DNA from: Thermoanaerobaculia bacterium
GTDB taxonomy: Bacteria; Acidobacteriota; Thermoanaerobaculia; Multivoradales; JAHEKO01
Length of the DNA stretch: 37,492 nt
Direction of reading: 5' to 3'
Assembly (NCBI GenBank): GCA_945787575.1
Contig: CALZKB010000012.1
Span: forward strand, 1 to 37,492
Of this stretch, positions 28,273 through 36,439 are shown one piece after another. The notes under the pieces are model-generated. The model saw only the letters and a program-made list of their open reading frames with translations, did no database searches and was not told the DNA's origin. How positions within the stretch are numbered: the stretch's first letter is position 1; each line of letters starts with the position of its first letter. The position numbers and the translations under genes are program-made.

Positions 28273-29322
28273 TCAGTTCCGCAGTATCCGAAAATAGTAT
28301 CTGCCTGCGAGCTCGAGCTCGCCACCTGTGGTCGCGCCACTCAGCCGAATATAGTAGTCGCCGACCAGTAACAACTTGGTCGGCAACGTCACGTCCACGG
28401 CAACCCTGGAATCGAAGGATTCAGCCTGGAGCTTCGCCTGGCTCCACAGCTCATCGCCGGCCGCTTCGTGAAGAGACGCGCGGTAGCTCGCGTAGTCGTC
28501 TACGCCGAGATCGAGAAGCAGTTGAAGCAGACTCGCGTCCGCCGGGATGATCACCCGCTCCGTCTCTCCCCCACCCCGGAGAAGACCTGGTGTAAGCCAA
28601 ACCGAGGCGAGGAATGACCCTAGCCCGGCTTTCCGCGCCAGTTTGTCGCCCGCGGCCCGAACCGCTTCGAGCTCGCGTTCCAGCGAAGCGCGCTGAGAGC
28701 GTTCGGCCAGCAGCTCGACTTTCAGCGATTCGCCGCGCGCTCGTTGCTCGGCCATCTGGCGCCTCGACGAGGCCTCGCTCTCCGCGAGCGCGGCCTGGGC
28801 GGAATGAGCTTGGTCGAGTCTGGTCTCCAGCCGCAGCTTGCCGACGAACAGCCACACGCCACCGATGATGGCTGCGACCAGCGTCGCTGCCAGAGCCATG
28901 CTCCAGGCGGGACGAGCTACCCAAGCCGATAGGTTTCGGAACGGCCGAGACTCCACTGGGCTTACCTCTCCGGAGGACTGAGGAGCCCCGCGTTCCTCGA
29001 GGTAGCTCTTCAGTATTGGGGCGAAGCCCAGCGCAAAGCTCAATGGCCTTCGTCGCCGAGGCGCGCGCAAGAAGTTGTCTTCGAAGAGCCTCCGTTGGAG
29101 TTCACTCAATTCACCCCAGACATACTCATCGATCAGCTCGGCCTCGACGTTCTCCAGCTCGCCTTCGACCTTCTTCGAACGCTCACCCGAAGCCTCCATC
29201 AGCCGGAGCTCGACAACCTCCGCCAGCTGCCTGTCCCCGTCCCCTTGCGAGTCCGGGTCAAAGTCCGTCAGCAGGTAGGCTCTGACCTCCTCGTGAAGAG
29301 CTTCGTTGATCTGTGCCTTCAT
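28273..29322 (-). CDS. Single-TM protein with coiled-coil segment, possibly anti-sigma-like
   Basis: MKAQINEALHEEVRAYLLTDFDPDSQGDGDRQLAEVVELRLME... cytosolic helix-rich N region, TM WSMALAATLVAAIIGGVWLFV, coiled coil, beta-rich C region. Immediately follows the sigma factor gene. Confidence 0.55.
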   Translation of the reverse strand: MKAQINEALHEEVRAYLLTDFDPDSQGDGDRQLAEVVELRLMEASGERSKKVEGELENVEAELIDEYVWGELSELQRRLFEDNFLRAPRRRRPLSFALGFAPILKSYLEERGAPQSSGEVSPVESRPFRNLSAWVARPAWSMALAATLVAAIIGGVWLFVGKLRLETRLDQAHSAQAALAESEASSRRQMAEQRARGESLKVELLAERSQRASLERELEAVRAAGDKLARKAGLGSFLASVWLTPGLLRGGGETERVIIPADASLLQLLLDLGVDDYASYRASLHEAAGDELWSQAKLQAESFDSRVAVDVTLPTKLLLVGDYYIRLSGATTGGELELAGRYYFRILRN

Positions 29323-29387
29323 ATTCCGCCCACTCCCTCTCTGATCCACTTCATCCAATCGGTAATGACCCAACACCCCATTTCATT

Positions 29388-29990
29388 TCAATGCTCCTGT
29401 CCTTCCAAGCACCCATGAACGCATTCGCGCAGCTTCGTTCTAATTCGGCAGGTCGCGATCCGTAGTTGATTCAGGTTCCAGTTGTGTTTCTTCGCGAGGT
29501 CTCTGCGATGGTCGATTTTGGCTCTCTTCTCCGAGTGGTAATACTCCAGGATCAGCTCCCGGCTTCCCTTGTTCAATCTGTCCAACTTGTCGAGGCATCG
29601 ATCGAGGCACCGGCTCATGCGCTCCTTGATCTCCTGGTCTTCGAGATCGGTTTCGGCTGCCGGTAGCCGGTCCGGCAGAGGCTGTTCCCGCCATCGCCTC
29701 AACGACTCTTTGAACACCCGGGTGGCGAACGAATAGACGAAAGGAAGAGGGTCGCCCACACACGGTTTTGCGATCTCGTCCGCTTCGCACTTCCTCGCCA
29801 ACCGGTCGAGCGTCTCTTCCGCGAGATCTTCCGGGTCCGAGGAGCCGCGATATGTAAAGATCCGGACGAGACCGGCCCGGATTCTCTGCAGCTTCTCCCT
29901 CGCGACTTCACGATCGCGATCGAGAAAGCGAATCAAACTGGCGTAGGAGTCAGGGGTGAGCTTCTCCCAGCCTTTGGGCCTAAACGACAT
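29388..29990 (-). CDS. ECF-like sigma-70-family RNA polymerase sigma factor
   Basis: RKCEADEIAKPCVGDPLPFVYSFATRVFKESLRRWREQ (region 2-like) ... LDRLNKGSRELILEYYHSEKRAKIDHRRDLAKKHNWNLNQLRIATCRIRTKLRECV (region 4-like). Confidence 0.75.
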   Translation of the reverse strand: MSFRPKGWEKLTPDSYASLIRFLDRDREVAREKLQRIRAGLVRIFTYRGSSDPEDLAEETLDRLARKCEADEIAKPCVGDPLPFVYSFATRVFKESLRRWREQPLPDRLPAAETDLEDQEIKERMSRCLDRCLDKLDRLNKGSRELILEYYHSEKRAKIDHRRDLAKKHNWNLNQLRIATCRIRTKLRECVHGCLEGQEH

Positions 29991-30062
29991 ATTGACCATC
30001 CGTTTCGATGCGGCCAGCTTCATGACGCAGCTGACGGTGCCGCCACAAAGATCGCAACTGGC

Positions 30063-33000
30063 TCACTGCCACTCCCCCTGCAGGGTGAACGCGGCCCAGT
30101 AGAAAGGCGAGCGCCACTGAGTCTGACTCCACATCTCGATCTGCGCCCGCCGCAACGCCGCCGGCGGCGAGTCGTTCTCCTTCAGCATCTGGTAGTAGAA
30201 GCGGCTCATCAGCTGTCCGGTGGCCTCATCATCAACCTTCCACAGGCTAGCCACCACACGTCTGGCGCCGGTGTACATGAAGCCTCGCACGATACCTACC
30301 AAACCCTCACCCCGGATCTCCTTTCCCAAGGCAGTATTGCAGGCGCTCAGCACGACCAACTCGACCGGCAGCTTCAGCTGGTAGATGTCATGCAATCGTA
30401 GAAATCCGTTCTGCGGTTTTCCCTGTTCATCGAACAGAGAAAGCACGATGGCCGAGAGGCCAGGATTCTGGTTGTTGATCAGGCCATGAGTGGCGAAGTG
30501 AACGATCCGATACCCGGCGAGCTCGGAGCTCGTTGCCAAGTCGAGGCTCGCGTCGAAGCCCAGCGCTATCAGGCTCGTGCCCGCGGGCGCCGCGGCCACG
30601 ATCGCATCGGCCTCCTGGCGCGTCGCCACCAGTCGTGGGATCCGCAACCTACCGTCCTGAAGAAAGCCGACCTCGCGCAGGGTGCCGGAGACCACGAATT
30701 CCGTCGAGGCAGTGGTCTCGGCGAAATCGGCATCGAGCCGTCTGGTGGATCTCTCCGCTCCTCCGACTCTCGGGTCGTCGAGCTCGAAGACCGGATCGGC
30801 CAGGACCGCCACCGACATCCCTGGCGTCTCTCGCCCCGCGGTCTCTTTCCGCAGGGTCGCCAGGGTCGAAATGGACGGCAAACTCACGATCTCGTGCTCG
30901 ACTGCCAGGGGGACCGGTGCCGCCCCCTTTGATCGAACGGGTAACGCCCCGAAAGGCAGATACTGCAGCGCTCCGTCCGCCACCACGAGAAGCCTCTTTC
31001 CGGCGAATCTCTCTCCGACAGGCCCGATGAGCATCTCGCTCAGGCGTGCCGCCTCGGTCCAGTAGGCGGCGTCGGCGGCCTTTACCCGCCGGCGGCGTTC
31101 GCTCAGGGTCTCGCCGGATACCGGCAACCGCGCCGTTAGAAGCCGATAGACGTTGCGAGCGGCCCGCTCAATCTGGGCACGCGGCGGCAGCTCGTAGGTC
31201 GCGTACCCACTTCGCCACACCGCCCACAGGAAGCTGCGCGTCTCTCCCAGTGCATACTCCAAGAGTAGGGTGTCGTCGTCCAGTACATCGTCCTGGATTC
31301 CCTTCAGGTCCAGGGATCGAGGCTGGCTCAAGGCCGTGACCTCCGGACTCTGGCTGCGGATTCGGGCCTGAAGCTGATCGTAGAGAATCGTCAGGTCTCG
31401 GACCTGGCCCTCCGCCGTTTCCAGCTCACGCGGGTCTGCCTCGCTGCCCATCAGCTCCATCAATCGGTCGGCAGAGGCATCCAGAGTCCGCTTCAGCTGT
31501 CGTTCTCGCGCCCTCAACAGCGGATCCAGGCCTCGATACAGATCGATGCCGGATTCGGCCAGGTTTTCCAGCAGCGACTGCGCGCGCGCTCGCTCGGCCA
31601 CCTGCAGAGCCTCGGCCGCGAGCTCCCGCGTCCCGTCGATCTCGTGGAGGCGCATGAGCACTTCAATGTAGACCTCGTAGTACTTATGAAAGGACGCCAC
31701 GTAGGAGGCGCGTAGACTGTGACTCGCCACCTGCCCGCGCAGCGATTCTGCAATCCGTAGGGCCGCTTCGAGATGAGTCCGCGCCGCCCAGAGATCTCGC
31801 CGCTCCCGCTCGACCCTACCCAGGCCATAGAGGGCCGCTGACTCTCCCTGGCGATCTCGAGCGAATCTGCTGAGGTTGAGGGCACCCAGCAGGTAGTGCT
31901 GGGCTCGCTCGAGCTCGCCGAGCTGAAGATAGGTCCTCCCGATGTCGGCCAGCGTGTCGGCCTCGAGCCTCGGGTCGACGAAGTGCTTCTGGTAGCTCAG
32001 AGAGCGCTGGTAGTGCTCCAACGCCTCATTCAGCTCTCCGCTCGACTGATAGGTCATTCCGATCAGCCGAATTCCGTATGCTTCGGCTCTTCGATTCTCC
32101 AGTTCCCGGCTGATGGCAACCGCTTCCTCGAAGCGAGCGAGAGCGGCGGTGTGGTCATGCGAGGCAAGAGCATTCCAGCCGAGGAACTCGAGCAGCTCCT
32201 CCTCAGCCATACGAAGACCTGCCGACCTGTACAGCGCCAGCGCTCTTGCCCAGTAGCCTCGGGCACTTTGGTTCTCGCCCATCTGCGAATAGACCGAGCC
32301 CAAGCCGGCCAGGGCGCTCGCGCGCCACACGGCATCACCCATCTTCTCCAGTAGCGACAGCGCTCGATTGAAGGCGTTCAACGCCAGCTGAGATTCGCCG
32401 AGGCGGAAGTTCAAGCGACCGATGGCCACCAGAGTCATGGCTTCCCCTCGTCTGTCACCCAGGAGTTCCCAGAGTGCCAGCGCGCTCTCGTAGTGGGCGT
32501 GCGCCCGGTCGAGGTCGCTCAGATCCGAATAGGAATAGCCAAGGAGAAGCAACGTTTGGGCGAGGCCTTCTTGGTCGCCGAGCCGGCGCCAGAGCTCCTC
32601 CGCCCGCCGGTAGGAGCTCACCGCATCCGTCAGGTTTCCTCGATGGTAGTCGACCTCTCCCAGACAGTTGAGCGCCTTTGCTTCGCCTCTCGCGCTCGCC
32701 AGCTCGCGCACCAAAGCGAGCGCCTCCTGACATCGCGTCAATGCTCTCTCCTGGTCACCCAGAAGAACATGAAGCAAGCCAACGTCGCTGAGGAGCTCGC
32801 TCTCGATCGGCCGAGCCCGACCCTCCCGACTGAGCCTCAGAGCGTCTTCATACGCCTTCAACGCCTGGTTCAGATCGCCCGATCGCTCGTAGAGCAGACC
32901 GATTCTCTGACCTGATCTTGCGGCCCCCTCTTGGTCGCCTCTGCGCGCGAAGGCCTCGCGAGCTGCTCGATAGGTCTCCAGTGCTTGGCTTCCAGCTCCT

Positions 33001-33194
33001 TCCTCGTAGACACGGAGCAGGTGTTCTCCTTGCTCGAACACCTCCTCCGCCGATGGTTGCCGATCGGCTTCGGCTGCCGCCTTGCCAGCGAGCTGCGAGT
33101 TCGGCCATGTACTGCCCGAGGCGACCTCGGAGCAGAGCAAGCAGACGAGAACACACATCGCGCTCCCGAGCCGTCCGCTGATTCTTCCGAACAT
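30063..33194 (-). CDS. TPR-CHAT domain protease-like protein
   Basis: Signal-like N terminus, many TPRs, C-terminal CHAT with YRIVHFATHGLINNQNP (His) and VELVVLSACNTALGKEIRGEGLVGIVRGFMYTGARRVVASLWKVDD (Cys). Confidence 0.92.
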   Translation of the reverse strand: MFGRISGRLGSAMCVLVCLLCSEVASGSTWPNSQLAGKAAAEADRQPSAEEVFEQGEHLLRVYEEGAGSQALETYRAAREAFARRGDQEGAARSGQRIGLLYERSGDLNQALKAYEDALRLSREGRARPIESELLSDVGLLHVLLGDQERALTRCQEALALVRELASARGEAKALNCLGEVDYHRGNLTDAVSSYRRAEELWRRLGDQEGLAQTLLLLGYSYSDLSDLDRAHAHYESALALWELLGDRRGEAMTLVAIGRLNFRLGESQLALNAFNRALSLLEKMGDAVWRASALAGLGSVYSQMGENQSARGYWARALALYRSAGLRMAEEELLEFLGWNALASHDHTAALARFEEAVAISRELENRRAEAYGIRLIGMTYQSSGELNEALEHYQRSLSYQKHFVDPRLEADTLADIGRTYLQLGELERAQHYLLGALNLSRFARDRQGESAALYGLGRVERERRDLWAARTHLEAALRIAESLRGQVASHSLRASYVASFHKYYEVYIEVLMRLHEIDGTRELAAEALQVAERARAQSLLENLAESGIDLYRGLDPLLRARERQLKRTLDASADRLMELMGSEADPRELETAEGQVRDLTILYDQLQARIRSQSPEVTALSQPRSLDLKGIQDDVLDDDTLLLEYALGETRSFLWAVWRSGYATYELPPRAQIERAARNVYRLLTARLPVSGETLSERRRRVKAADAAYWTEAARLSEMLIGPVGERFAGKRLLVVADGALQYLPFGALPVRSKGAAPVPLAVEHEIVSLPSISTLATLRKETAGRETPGMSVAVLADPVFELDDPRVGGAERSTRRLDADFAETTASTEFVVSGTLREVGFLQDGRLRIPRLVATRQEADAIVAAAPAGTSLIALGFDASLDLATSSELAGYRIVHFATHGLINNQNPGLSAIVLSLFDEQGKPQNGFLRLHDIYQLKLPVELVVLSACNTALGKEIRGEGLVGIVRGFMYTGARRVVASLWKVDDEATGQLMSRFYYQMLKENDSPPAALRRAQIEMWSQTQWRSPFYWAAFTLQGEWQ

Positions 33195-33242
33195 GGAGTC
33201 CCCTACGCTGCCGGGACGCTTCTCCCTGAAACCTGCCTTCGA

Positions 33243-34925
33243 TTATAAGTCCGGCGGCCAACGAAAGGAGCCGCACCCCGGTGGCAGGTTCTGTGCCGAG
33301 TGCTCTCGATCGGAGGTACCTTCATAACGGCTGCGGGCGTAGCGACTGCGGGCATAGCGACTGCGGGCGTAGCGACTACGCGCGTAGCGACTCCGGGCAT
33401 AGCGGCTGCGCGCATAGCGGGAGAACTCCCTAAGAGCCTCTTCAGACGCAGGCTCCGATAGGTCGAAGTCACGCCCGAGAATCCTCTGAACCATCCCCTG
33501 CAGTGAATCCGAATCCTCAGAATGGGTCTGACTCCGATCAGTTATGCCGTCTCTGGCGTCGCGTCTCGTCTTCTTTAGATATGACTCGACGAAATTTACC
33601 CACTGCGGCGCATCTCTCGCCAGCTGCAAGTTCTTGTAGGTAGGCGAGAGCTCGGCCCAGGGAAAGGAGAGCGCGATCCCGTGGGAGTGTTGACAGGCAG
33701 AGCCGCAGCCAGACGACACCACGACCCATCTCTTCCACTCGTTATCGTCATCGATCGTCTTGCACGCATTGATGACCCGGTCCCAGACCTTTCTGTCTGG
33801 GTGGCCGCTCTCTGGTTTGTGTGATTTGAACTCCCTCTGGAGGCAGATGCAGAGATCGCGCAGGTCGACGAACTGGTGGAATTTGTAGGTCTGTGCCCTC
33901 CAATGTGCAATGAGGATCTGGTCCTCGAACCGCTCCAGAGCGTCCCCCAAAGCCCCTCCCAGTTTGTCGAGCCGCTCTTTCAATATGTCGATCTCGCCCA
34001 GCTTGATCGCTGCCAGGTCTACAGAGCGCCCTACCGAACGATCATAGTCTCGGTAATAGCCGACGTAGCTGTCGACAATCACCTCACCAAGCTCCTCGGG
34101 TAGGAGCGGTCGATCTTCGTAGGAAGCGGCGAGCGCCGCGTTCAGAATCGAATGGTACGGCCAGCCGAAGTCTGGCTCGTAGCCTTCCGCCCCGACGATG
34201 ACCTCGACGTGTTCCCGAACCTCGTAGCAGACTTCCAGCATGTTCATGAAGCAAGCGTCCATTCCCAGGAGATGAATCTTTTCCTCGGGGGTTTGACCGC
34301 GCTGGAGTGCTTCGCGTCGTTTCTCGCAACAGTCGTCGTGCGTTGGCCCATCTTCCTGGTCCACGTACTCACAGTCCAGTGCTATGAGGATACGGGCGCG
34401 CTCAAGTGCCTCGCGTAGCTCGGGGAGCGTCAACGAGTCCTCGGCCGCCTCGTCTTTCAGGAGAAAGTCCTCGGTCGCCCCGCTCCCGTGTCCCACGAGG
34501 AGGATTGCGTACTTGTCGGCGCGACCGTTCTGCTCCTCAACACCACCGGCGGTCTTCTTTGGACTATTCACCGCCCAGCCGACGAAACCGCTAAGCGCCC
34601 CGGGGTTTCCGGTGTTTGTCTCGTCCAGGCGAAGCTGCGGCTCTACCACCAAGTCTTGATCAACGCCGTCGTCTTGATCAACGCCGTCGCTCCCAGCGCT
34701 CGAGGCGGAGGGCTCTCGTCCAGTGATGAGGTAACGTTGGGTGGGGATGCCGAGGCCGCTGGGATCGAGCTGCGCCAACACCCTGACGCGACCCTCCAAT
34801 TCGGTACCGGTACTGCGAAGTTGCTGCAACTGCAGCACCATGTCCTCGGCCAAGCTGTTGTCTCCGGCCATGTAGGCCATGGCGGTCCAATGGGTTTCGT
34901 TCAGCTCTTTTTCTGCTGATTCCAT
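33243..34925 (-). CDS. C11 (clostripain-like) cysteine protease with C-terminal RYARS pentapeptide repeats
   Basis: WTAMAYMAGDNSLAEDMVLQLQQL, KYAILLVGHGSG (catalytic His), HLLGMDACFMNMLEVCYEVREHVEVIVGAEGYEPDFGWPY (catalytic Cys). Confidence 0.88.
   Translation of the reverse strand: MESAEKELNETHWTAMAYMAGDNSLAEDMVLQLQQLRSTGTELEGRVRVLAQLDPSGLGIPTQRYLITGREPSASSAGSDGVDQDDGVDQDLVVEPQLRLDETNTGNPGALSGFVGWAVNSPKKTAGGVEEQNGRADKYAILLVGHGSGATEDFLLKDEAAEDSLTLPELREALERARILIALDCEYVDQEDGPTHDDCCEKRREALQRGQTPEEKIHLLGMDACFMNMLEVCYEVREHVEVIVGAEGYEPDFGWPYHSILNAALAASYEDRPLLPEELGEVIVDSYVGYYRDYDRSVGRSVDLAAIKLGEIDILKERLDKLGGALGDALERFEDQILIAHWRAQTYKFHQFVDLRDLCICLQREFKSHKPESGHPDRKVWDRVINACKTIDDDNEWKRWVVVSSGCGSACQHSHGIALSFPWAELSPTYKNLQLARDAPQWVNFVESYLKKTRRDARDGITDRSQTHSEDSDSLQGMVQRILGRDFDLSEPASEEALREFSRYARSRYARSRYARSRYARSRYARSRYARSRYEGTSDREHSAQNLPPGCGSFRWPPDL
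33328..33417 (-). repeat. Six 15-bp tandem repeats encoding RYARS
   Basis: Units cggctgcgggcgtag / cgactgcgggcatag / cgactgcgggcgtag / cgactacgcgcgtag / cgactccgggcatag / cggctgcgcgcatag in register. Confidence 0.95.
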
Positions 34926-34953
34926 AGCTCTTGCGCCTCTAGTTGGGTTGACG

Positions 34954-35844
34954 TTACCGATTCTGCAGATCCGCCATCGAATGTCGGGGAAATCCACTGA
35001 CAGGTCTGCTCCCGCGCGTGATCGCGATGAGATTGATGTCGTCCGGAGATGGCTTGCCACCGCTGAACTGAATCGCGCTGGCCATCAGGTGCTCGATTAC
35101 CGCTTCCCCCGCCTGACCGGCTACTCTCGCGAGCCCTTCTTGTAAGAACCCGTCTTCAAAGGACTCGTCCAGGTCGTTGACGATCGAGCCCAAACCGTCG
35201 GACGCGATCAAGAACACATCTCCCCATTCCAGCGTCAGAGTGGTTGCCTCGTACGTTGCTGCTCCTTCGCCCTCGAAGAGTCCGATAGGGCAGCCAGTAA
35301 CCTCCACTTCCTCTACCCGCTGAGTGCGGGAGCGCAGCACGAAGGGATGGGGCAGCCCAGCGTGGGCGTAGCGCACCGCGGAGCCTTCGCCCTCGAGTGT
35401 CGCCACTCCCGCCGCGACGAACACCCTCCGCGGGACGAGCGGAAGGAGTCCCGCGTTCATCCGTGCCAGAAGGTCGCGCGGCACGATCGTCGTGGCGGCG
35501 GCTTCCTGAAAGACGGCCTTCACCAGCATAGTGGTCATAGCGGCCTCGATACCGTGCCCCATGACATCGCACACCAGCAGGGCCGCACTATCGTGATCGC
35601 GAAAGAGATCGTAGAAATCTCCCCCGAGCGCTTCACATGGCCGGTAGAGCGCCGCGAAGCTGTACTGCCCGAGCGGCGCCGAGAGGTCTGGTAGCAGGCT
35701 CTTCTGGACGCGCGCGGCCCGTTCCAGCTGCCGCGCGAGCGAGCCCAATGTGTCGACTCGTTCCCGCTGCATTTTAAGACTCGACGCGAAGGACAAGACG
35801 CTGTCCCTTTCCCGCCGGATGGCTCGCTGTTCGTTGAGCTGCAT
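34954..35844 (-). CDS. SpoIIE/PP2C-type serine phosphatase (RsbU-like)
   Basis: ARVQKSLLPDLSAPLGQYSFAALYRPCEALGGDFYDLFRDHDSAALLVCDVMGHGIEAAMTTMLVKAVF...DVFLIASDGLGSIVND. Upstream in-frame extension to 36036 possible. Confidence 0.9.
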   Translation of the reverse strand: MQLNEQRAIRRERDSVLSFASSLKMQRERVDTLGSLARQLERAARVQKSLLPDLSAPLGQYSFAALYRPCEALGGDFYDLFRDHDSAALLVCDVMGHGIEAAMTTMLVKAVFQEAAATTIVPRDLLARMNAGLLPLVPRRVFVAAGVATLEGEGSAVRYAHAGLPHPFVLRSRTQRVEEVEVTGCPIGLFEGEGAATYEATTLTLEWGDVFLIASDGLGSIVNDLDESFEDGFLQEGLARVAGQAGEAVIEHLMASAIQFSGGKPSPDDINLIAITRGSRPVSGFPRHSMADLQNR

Positions 35845-36439
35845 GGTTTGCTCTCGATCCGAGCTGCTTGTGTCTGCCCTGCTTCTATATGAGCCATCAG
35901 GCAAAAACCTTTCAACCTCGGGCTGGAGCGTCGTTTCACTTCTCCACCAAAAAGCGAGCTCTGCCGCCCTTGGCCTCTCCTTCGGCGGCTCGGCGCCCTT
36001 CGCGACTGCCAGACAAGACTGAGCGGTCGACCCCACCAGGGGCGACGAGGACCCCTAGCCTTACGAGGTCGCCTTCAGCCGGCCGTGCCGTTCTCGGGAT
36101 CTGGTCTCATTCGACTACACAGCTAGCAGTTGTCTCAATACCCCAACGGGTAGGCAATAGGCGAATCTGACGAGGTACGTTCGGGCCGAATTTCAACGGC
36201 GCATCGGTCATTCTCTTGAGCCCCGCCGCGCTTGGCAACTACCCAGATATGGGCTGCTCTCCCGGCCCAGTGAACGTCTAAGCCGTCGTGGACACTAGCG
36301 ACTTCGGCCTCGTCTGAAGAACGACGGTCAGTGTTATGTGGCGGCCCACTGGCCAGCGCGCCGACCGCACTTATAAAGGCATTCCGTCGAGGACCGACCC
36401 CGGCGCCAAGAAACGTTTTGCGCGTCGTGCTCATTAATA

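Follow-up and report, generated by a model that had tools for sequence, protein, structure and literature searches.

Tandem-repeat tails with a Lys or Arg in every unit on a family of mainly acidobacterial C11 proteases: candidate self-cleavage linkers

The DNA considered here, from a Thermoanaerobaculia bacterium of the Acidobacteriota (assembly GCA_945787575.1, contig CALZKB010000012.1, positions 1 to 37,492; these 37,492 nucleotides are called the window below), encodes a clostripain-family (C11) cysteine protease whose tail is built of tandem five-residue units. What such a tail does on a protease, and whether it is peculiar to this locus, is the question addressed here. The first-pass annotation had suggested an Arg-directed auto-cleavage ladder or a basic docking function.

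The protein, P0001, was assigned to family C11: it matched Pfam PF03415 with 82.4 bits (curated cut-off 25.8), and the top Foldseek matches were the C11 structures 6n9j, 9cip and 6mzo (E ~1e-14), as expected for a caspase-like C11 fold. Both residues of the His/Cys dyad (H146 and C225) were conserved in the alignment, and D223, two residues ahead of the catalytic cysteine, is the predicted S1 Asp. In PmC11, an Asp at this place gives Arg/Lys specificity at P1 (PMC4850288), and P0001 is accordingly predicted to cleave after Arg or Lys. No signal peptide was seen on P0001 by eye. The same gene also displayed a separate 18-bp in-frame repeat at window positions 34653-34689, which encodes DGVDQD twice in a loop ahead of the catalytic histidine. 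Coordinates of all features are collected in Table 1.

Table 1. Features of the window around the C11 protease gene, with the basis of each assignment (A3 and A4, protein alignments)
Feature	Position	Strand	Basis
SpoIIE/PP2C phosphatase, upstream in the gene run	34954..36036	-	PF07228, 114.6 bits
C11 (clostripain-family) cysteine protease P0001, 560 aa	33243..34925	-	PF03415 and Foldseek
Codon of catalytic His146	34488..34490	-	Invariant in alignments A3 and A4
Codon of Asp223, predicted S1 Asp (DxC; equivalent of PmC11 Asp177)	34257..34259	-	Invariant in A3; PMC4850288
Codon of catalytic Cys225	34251..34253	-	Invariant in A4
T453-x-R455, end of catalytic domain, approximately where non-family C11 proteins stop	33561..33569	-	Invariant in A4; A3
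Tail array, SRYAR x6 (33333-33422) and degenerate SRYEG (33318-33332), residues 502-536	33318..33422	-	TRF, repeat score, codon count
[K/R/Q]N motif after the array, here Q545-N546	33288..33293	-	Conserved in alignment
Predicted beta-strand SFRW (553-556) after the disordered array	33258..33269	-	AlphaFold, moderate confidence; same place in L018
TPR-CHAT protein with signal-peptide-like N-terminal segment	30063..33194	-	PF12770, 217 bits
ECF-like sigma factor, weak match	29388..30023	-	TIGR02989, E 1.2e-4, below its cut-off; conserved cassette member
Single-TM protein resembling an anti-sigma factor in position and layout	28273..29376	-	Conserved beside the sigma gene

Six SRYAR units followed by a trailing SRYEG had been announced for this protein, and translation of the minus-strand ORF, TRF and a shuffle test all agreed with this description. 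TRF independently located the array at 33323-33419, and the protein-level repeat score of P0001 was 28, against a maximum of 5 among 200 shuffles of the same protein. The array also contained 13 Arg residues, as had been estimated, while the interval first given for it (33328-33417) lay a few bases out of codon register with the full units. Neighboring units shared 82 % of their nucleotides and 100 % of their amino acids. Within the core of identical units, seven alternative codons were encountered and all seven were synonymous (P=5e-5, with 0.24 as the synonymous fraction under neutrality). The earlier statement that every difference is synonymous was thus correct for this core and fails in the seventh unit, which displayed two amino-acid changes, A to E and R to G. 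The RYARSRYA pattern had no second occurrence in the organism's own genome outside the C11 gene.

AlphaFold assigned low confidence across the array (pLDDT <50 at residues 511 to 548), which is predicted to be disordered. A similar model, with a low-confidence array and a short strand of moderate confidence at the extreme C-terminus, was obtained for the relative L018, although the two runs are not independent because the same input sequences were used for both. The array is enclosed by two more constant elements: T453, R455 and N546 were invariant in 17 out of 17 aligned members, the window protein included. The [K/R/Q]N dipeptide was also located in the other members examined, among them members lacking an array; as the script picks the last such dipeptide, a few of these rows are chance matches.

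With profiles run against 396 genomes from the whole phylum and against 162 genomes of one class, 64 family proteins could be tabulated, nearly all of them from Acidobacteriota and one from a Planctomycetota MAG, which carried SKYNRA repeats in its tail. In the window's own class, close matches came only from three known genomes, with weaker matches in four others. Two genomes of the window's own family encoded C11 proteins 44 % identical to P0001, with tails composed of RYRRN (three copies) and KYGRTT (two copies). Most relatives displayed a tandem-repeat tail at a common place, and 42 of the 64 reached a tail-repeat score of at least 7, some of the remaining ones being cut by contig ends. 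Copy number ranged from 2 to 13 per array. The text of the unit was lineage-specific, with SRYAR, NNPPWSK, LAGQEGSK, DFPELGTK, PPYDVDNK, DGLPFTK, LGTGQGR and others; LAGQEGSK occurred only in the C11 gene in the genomes G168 and G203. Absence of an RY-rich tail from orthologues had been named as a refutation of the earlier idea; to the letter it applies, since the RY/KY theme was restricted to a four-member clade, but only to the letter, the tail itself being family-wide. Some genomes carried two or three family members with differing repeat units (e.g. G365 and G372).

The window protein bears both marks of the family, namely T-x-R after the catalytic domain with [K/R/Q]N near the C-terminus, and tandem units containing K or R. 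Unlike this repeat-tailed family, the other C11 proteins aligned here mostly stop at the catalytic domain; only four out of 64 such proteins scored 8 or more, their repeats being unrelated, and the remainder lacked such tails. No description of the family was found in the literature searched, most subscription papers and all preprints lying outside that coverage. A family-wide repeat tail in which a Lys or Arg is constant while the text of the unit changes is a new finding.

This constancy was apparent from 31 distinct units, listed by hand from the family arrays. Lys or Arg was present in all 31, whereas random dealing of the same residues predicted 22.8 such units (0 of 20,000 deals, P<5e-5), and the result was unchanged with a conservative set of 22 themes. 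Exactly one basic residue was present in 25 of the units. No other residue class was universal among the 31, and none exceeded chance at the level of Lys/Arg. Small or polar residues at P2 were found in 26 units (18.3 expected), an enrichment that is suggestive only, as it was noticed post hoc over some 40 combinations of class and position. Aromatic residues were encountered in just 15 of the 31 units. A radical-SAM cyclophane RiPP precursor had been considered for the aromatic-x-basic triplets seen in the window (YAR) and in L032 (WSK); LAGQEGSK contains no aromatic residue at all, and three genomes had a single SPASM match apiece, which in no case lay on the contig of the C11 gene. With aromatic residues missing from half of the units and no SPASM gene nearby, this reading was abandoned.

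Over 37 arrays, 240 of the 242 unit cells had kept a basic residue at the basic position; of 12 changes recorded there, 10 were exchanges between Lys and Arg. Non-basic positions had changed in 59 of 1415 cells (~4 %). The tail of L210 (3881-5740) appeared transitional, reading DNPIWSK-DHSIWSK-DNAFWNR-SNPSASR-SNPSASR: two types of seven-residue units stood side by side, and the seven-residue spacing of K/R continued unbroken through the replacement. Retention of K/R, with changes mostly from one to the other, is what a P1 site would be expected to show.

Synonymous alternatives outnumbered non-synonymous ones by 125 to 21 in core arrays, a ratio biased upward because these arrays were picked by amino-acid identity. 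The bias is lessened in the count over all 37 arrays, degenerate edge units included, which gave 259 to 67 where 81 synonymous alternatives were expected under neutrality. As judged from these codon counts, the text of the unit is under purifying selection, in agreement with the original view of the tail as selected. Tandem repeats are frequent at protein ends and copy number was variable here, as functionless slippage repeats would have it; with a synonymous excess inside the arrays, a universal K/R across a family-wide tail and the absence of this tail from other C11 proteins, neutral slippage is nevertheless extremely unlikely.

Electrostatic attachment of the tail to membranes, nucleic acid or phosphate-rich surfaces would suit the window, whose units each carry a net charge of +2. 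It does not hold up across the family, where the net charge was 0 or -1 in 20 of the 33 unit consensus sequences, and the basic docking or nucleic-acid-binding tail suggested at first is very unlikely for the family.

Since the basic residue is the tail's only universal feature and the protease is expected to cut after basic residues, the tail would most simply be a self-cleavage linker. Processing of this kind is documented in the family, as PmC11 is activated by self-cleavage at a Lys (PMC4850288) and self-cleavage of globupain, another C11 enzyme, proceeds in trans, a fragment of its C-terminus also being lost (PMC10315481). P0001 shares with clostripain, PmC11 and globupain the fold, the His/Cys dyad and the S1 Asp, and known C11 members cut after Arg/Lys and process themselves at Lys/Arg (PMC4850288, PMC10315481). 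In contrast, the two papers describe neither a tandem K/R tail nor a [K/R]N C-terminal element. In the mechanism proposed here, tandem and individually cleavable Lys/Arg sites would form a disordered linker between the catalytic domain and a C-terminal element, made of [K/R]N and the short strand, which may pack back onto the protein. C11, acting in cis or in trans, would cut after the Lys or Arg of any unit, and the cut would sever the C-terminal element, irreversibly switching protease activity or partner binding. Even odds are given to this scheme as a whole; the cleavage, its assignment to C11 and an inhibitory or regulatory role of the C-terminal element are all inferences. The initial idea of an Arg-directed cleavage of the tail has received strong, if indirect, support from these comparisons and was widened to Lys and to the family.

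A drift of only 4 % at non-basic positions is, on the other hand, slower than expected if P1 alone mattered, and calls for recognition by further subsites or for another function; conservation of the whole unit would stem from docking, a peptide product or recognition by subsites. Multicopy peptide precursors, such as yeast alpha-factor and neuropeptide precursors, consist of tandem identical short units parted by basic residues, and the C11 tail is likewise composed of tandem identical short units with basic residues. By this analogy, C11 or another K/R-specific protease would release identical peptides of 5-10 residues as an intracellular or exported signal. Units that are identical within an array and differ between lineages, present in 2 to 13 copies, under purifying selection over their whole length and with one K/R suited to excision, would all be accounted for. 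Unlike in these precursors, the array is fused to its predicted cutter and the secretion signal is absent; moreover, no dedicated transporter or receptor was noticed in the conserved cassette of neighboring genes, and the conserved C-terminal motif beyond the array would be superfluous. A peptide precursor is therefore rather unlikely, and its more specific form, a signal precursor joined to the very protease that processes it, with lineage-private peptides tied to a sigma-factor response, is unlikely.

Predicted disorder, multiple identical copies and conservation of the whole unit would equally suit a multivalent docking array, in which every unit would serve as a short linear motif recognized by a cognate partner, with the K/R as part of that motif. 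The resemblance of units to their own partners ranked at 0.50, 0.50 and 0.54 for the CHAT, sigma and anti-sigma-like proteins, against 0.5 expected. The partner would also have to be replaced together with the unit, and a universal, interchangeable K or R is left unexplained, which makes docking, with the peptide precursor the main rival of self-cleavage, likewise rather unlikely. Units were also considered as mimics of a site in the neighboring sigma, anti-sigma or CHAT protein, a candidate that was rejected as they matched their own locus no better than others.

Variation at S1 was encountered within the family. One C11 subclade (L144, L147, L186, L190, L193, L197-L200, L206-L208) displayed FHSC instead of FDSC, a His replacing the S1 Asp, which should change substrate preference. 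In the tree, where the S1-His clade comprised 11 rows with support 100, arrays were rarer in this clade (5/11, against 36/43 in the others; Fisher 0.015). This speaks for self-cleavage, but the association is not independent because the S1-His rows form a single clade. Against it, two S1-His members, L144 and L193, still harbored K-containing arrays, and six S1-Asp members (L143, L149, L188, L189, L202 and L204) displayed the C-terminal motif while lacking the array.

In the window, the C11 gene belongs to a run of five minus-strand genes separated by short gaps (28273-36036), in the order phosphatase, C11, TPR-CHAT, sigma and single-TM; the last product had no Pfam or NCBIfam match. The cassette of sigma, single-TM, C11 and TPR-CHAT genes recurred at many acidobacterial loci, and homologues of the sigma factor adjoined C11-CHAT at other loci. 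Apart from the window, genome G008 was the only one in which the phosphatase gene was encountered. The adjacent, co-directional C11 and CHAT genes, which occasionally overlap by a few bases, would be compatible with the earlier suggestion that the CHAT protease cuts the tail. CHAT proteins, however, displayed signal-peptide-like starts and many of them a C-terminal TM segment, while C11 family proteins began directly with the catalytic domain and showed no export signal (all by eye); in addition, 13 long-array C11 genes had neither a CHAT nor a sigma gene in the fetched flanks, some of which are shortened by contig ends. CHAT is for these reasons a highly improbable cutter. The standalone members (L132-L136, L185, L211, L213, L216, L218, L221, L223 and L224) carried the longest arrays, of up to 13 copies, with units of the LAGQEGSK, LGGSGSSTK and LGTGQGR types; a gene near one of them, L134, has a beginning similar to that of a protein kinase.

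The combination of a TPR-CHAT protein with a neighboring ECF-like sigma factor and a likely sigma inhibitor recalls the type III-E CRISPR module (Csx29 TPR-CHAT, Csx30, CASP-sigma), where proteolysis relieves a sigma inhibitor (PMC10028731). The cassette of the window differs in that it adds C11, its CHAT protein seems to be exported, the putative inhibitor has a single TM segment and no CRISPR effector was seen among its proteins: neither the Cas7-11 effector nor Csx30 was matched, and PADLOC, run against known defence systems, returned only a generic TPR match. In members belonging to the cassette, the output of the proposed switch would go to the neighboring sigma/anti-sigma pair.

Few biological roles are known for C11 enzymes, which are related to caspases, and a C11 protease is linked here to a sigma/anti-sigma/TPR-CHAT cassette in many Acidobacteriota. 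Repeated replacement of the unit text, with one Lys/Arg kept per unit, amounts to a natural experiment on putative self-cleavage switches, and the family gives a direct way to ask how C11-type enzymes are turned on.
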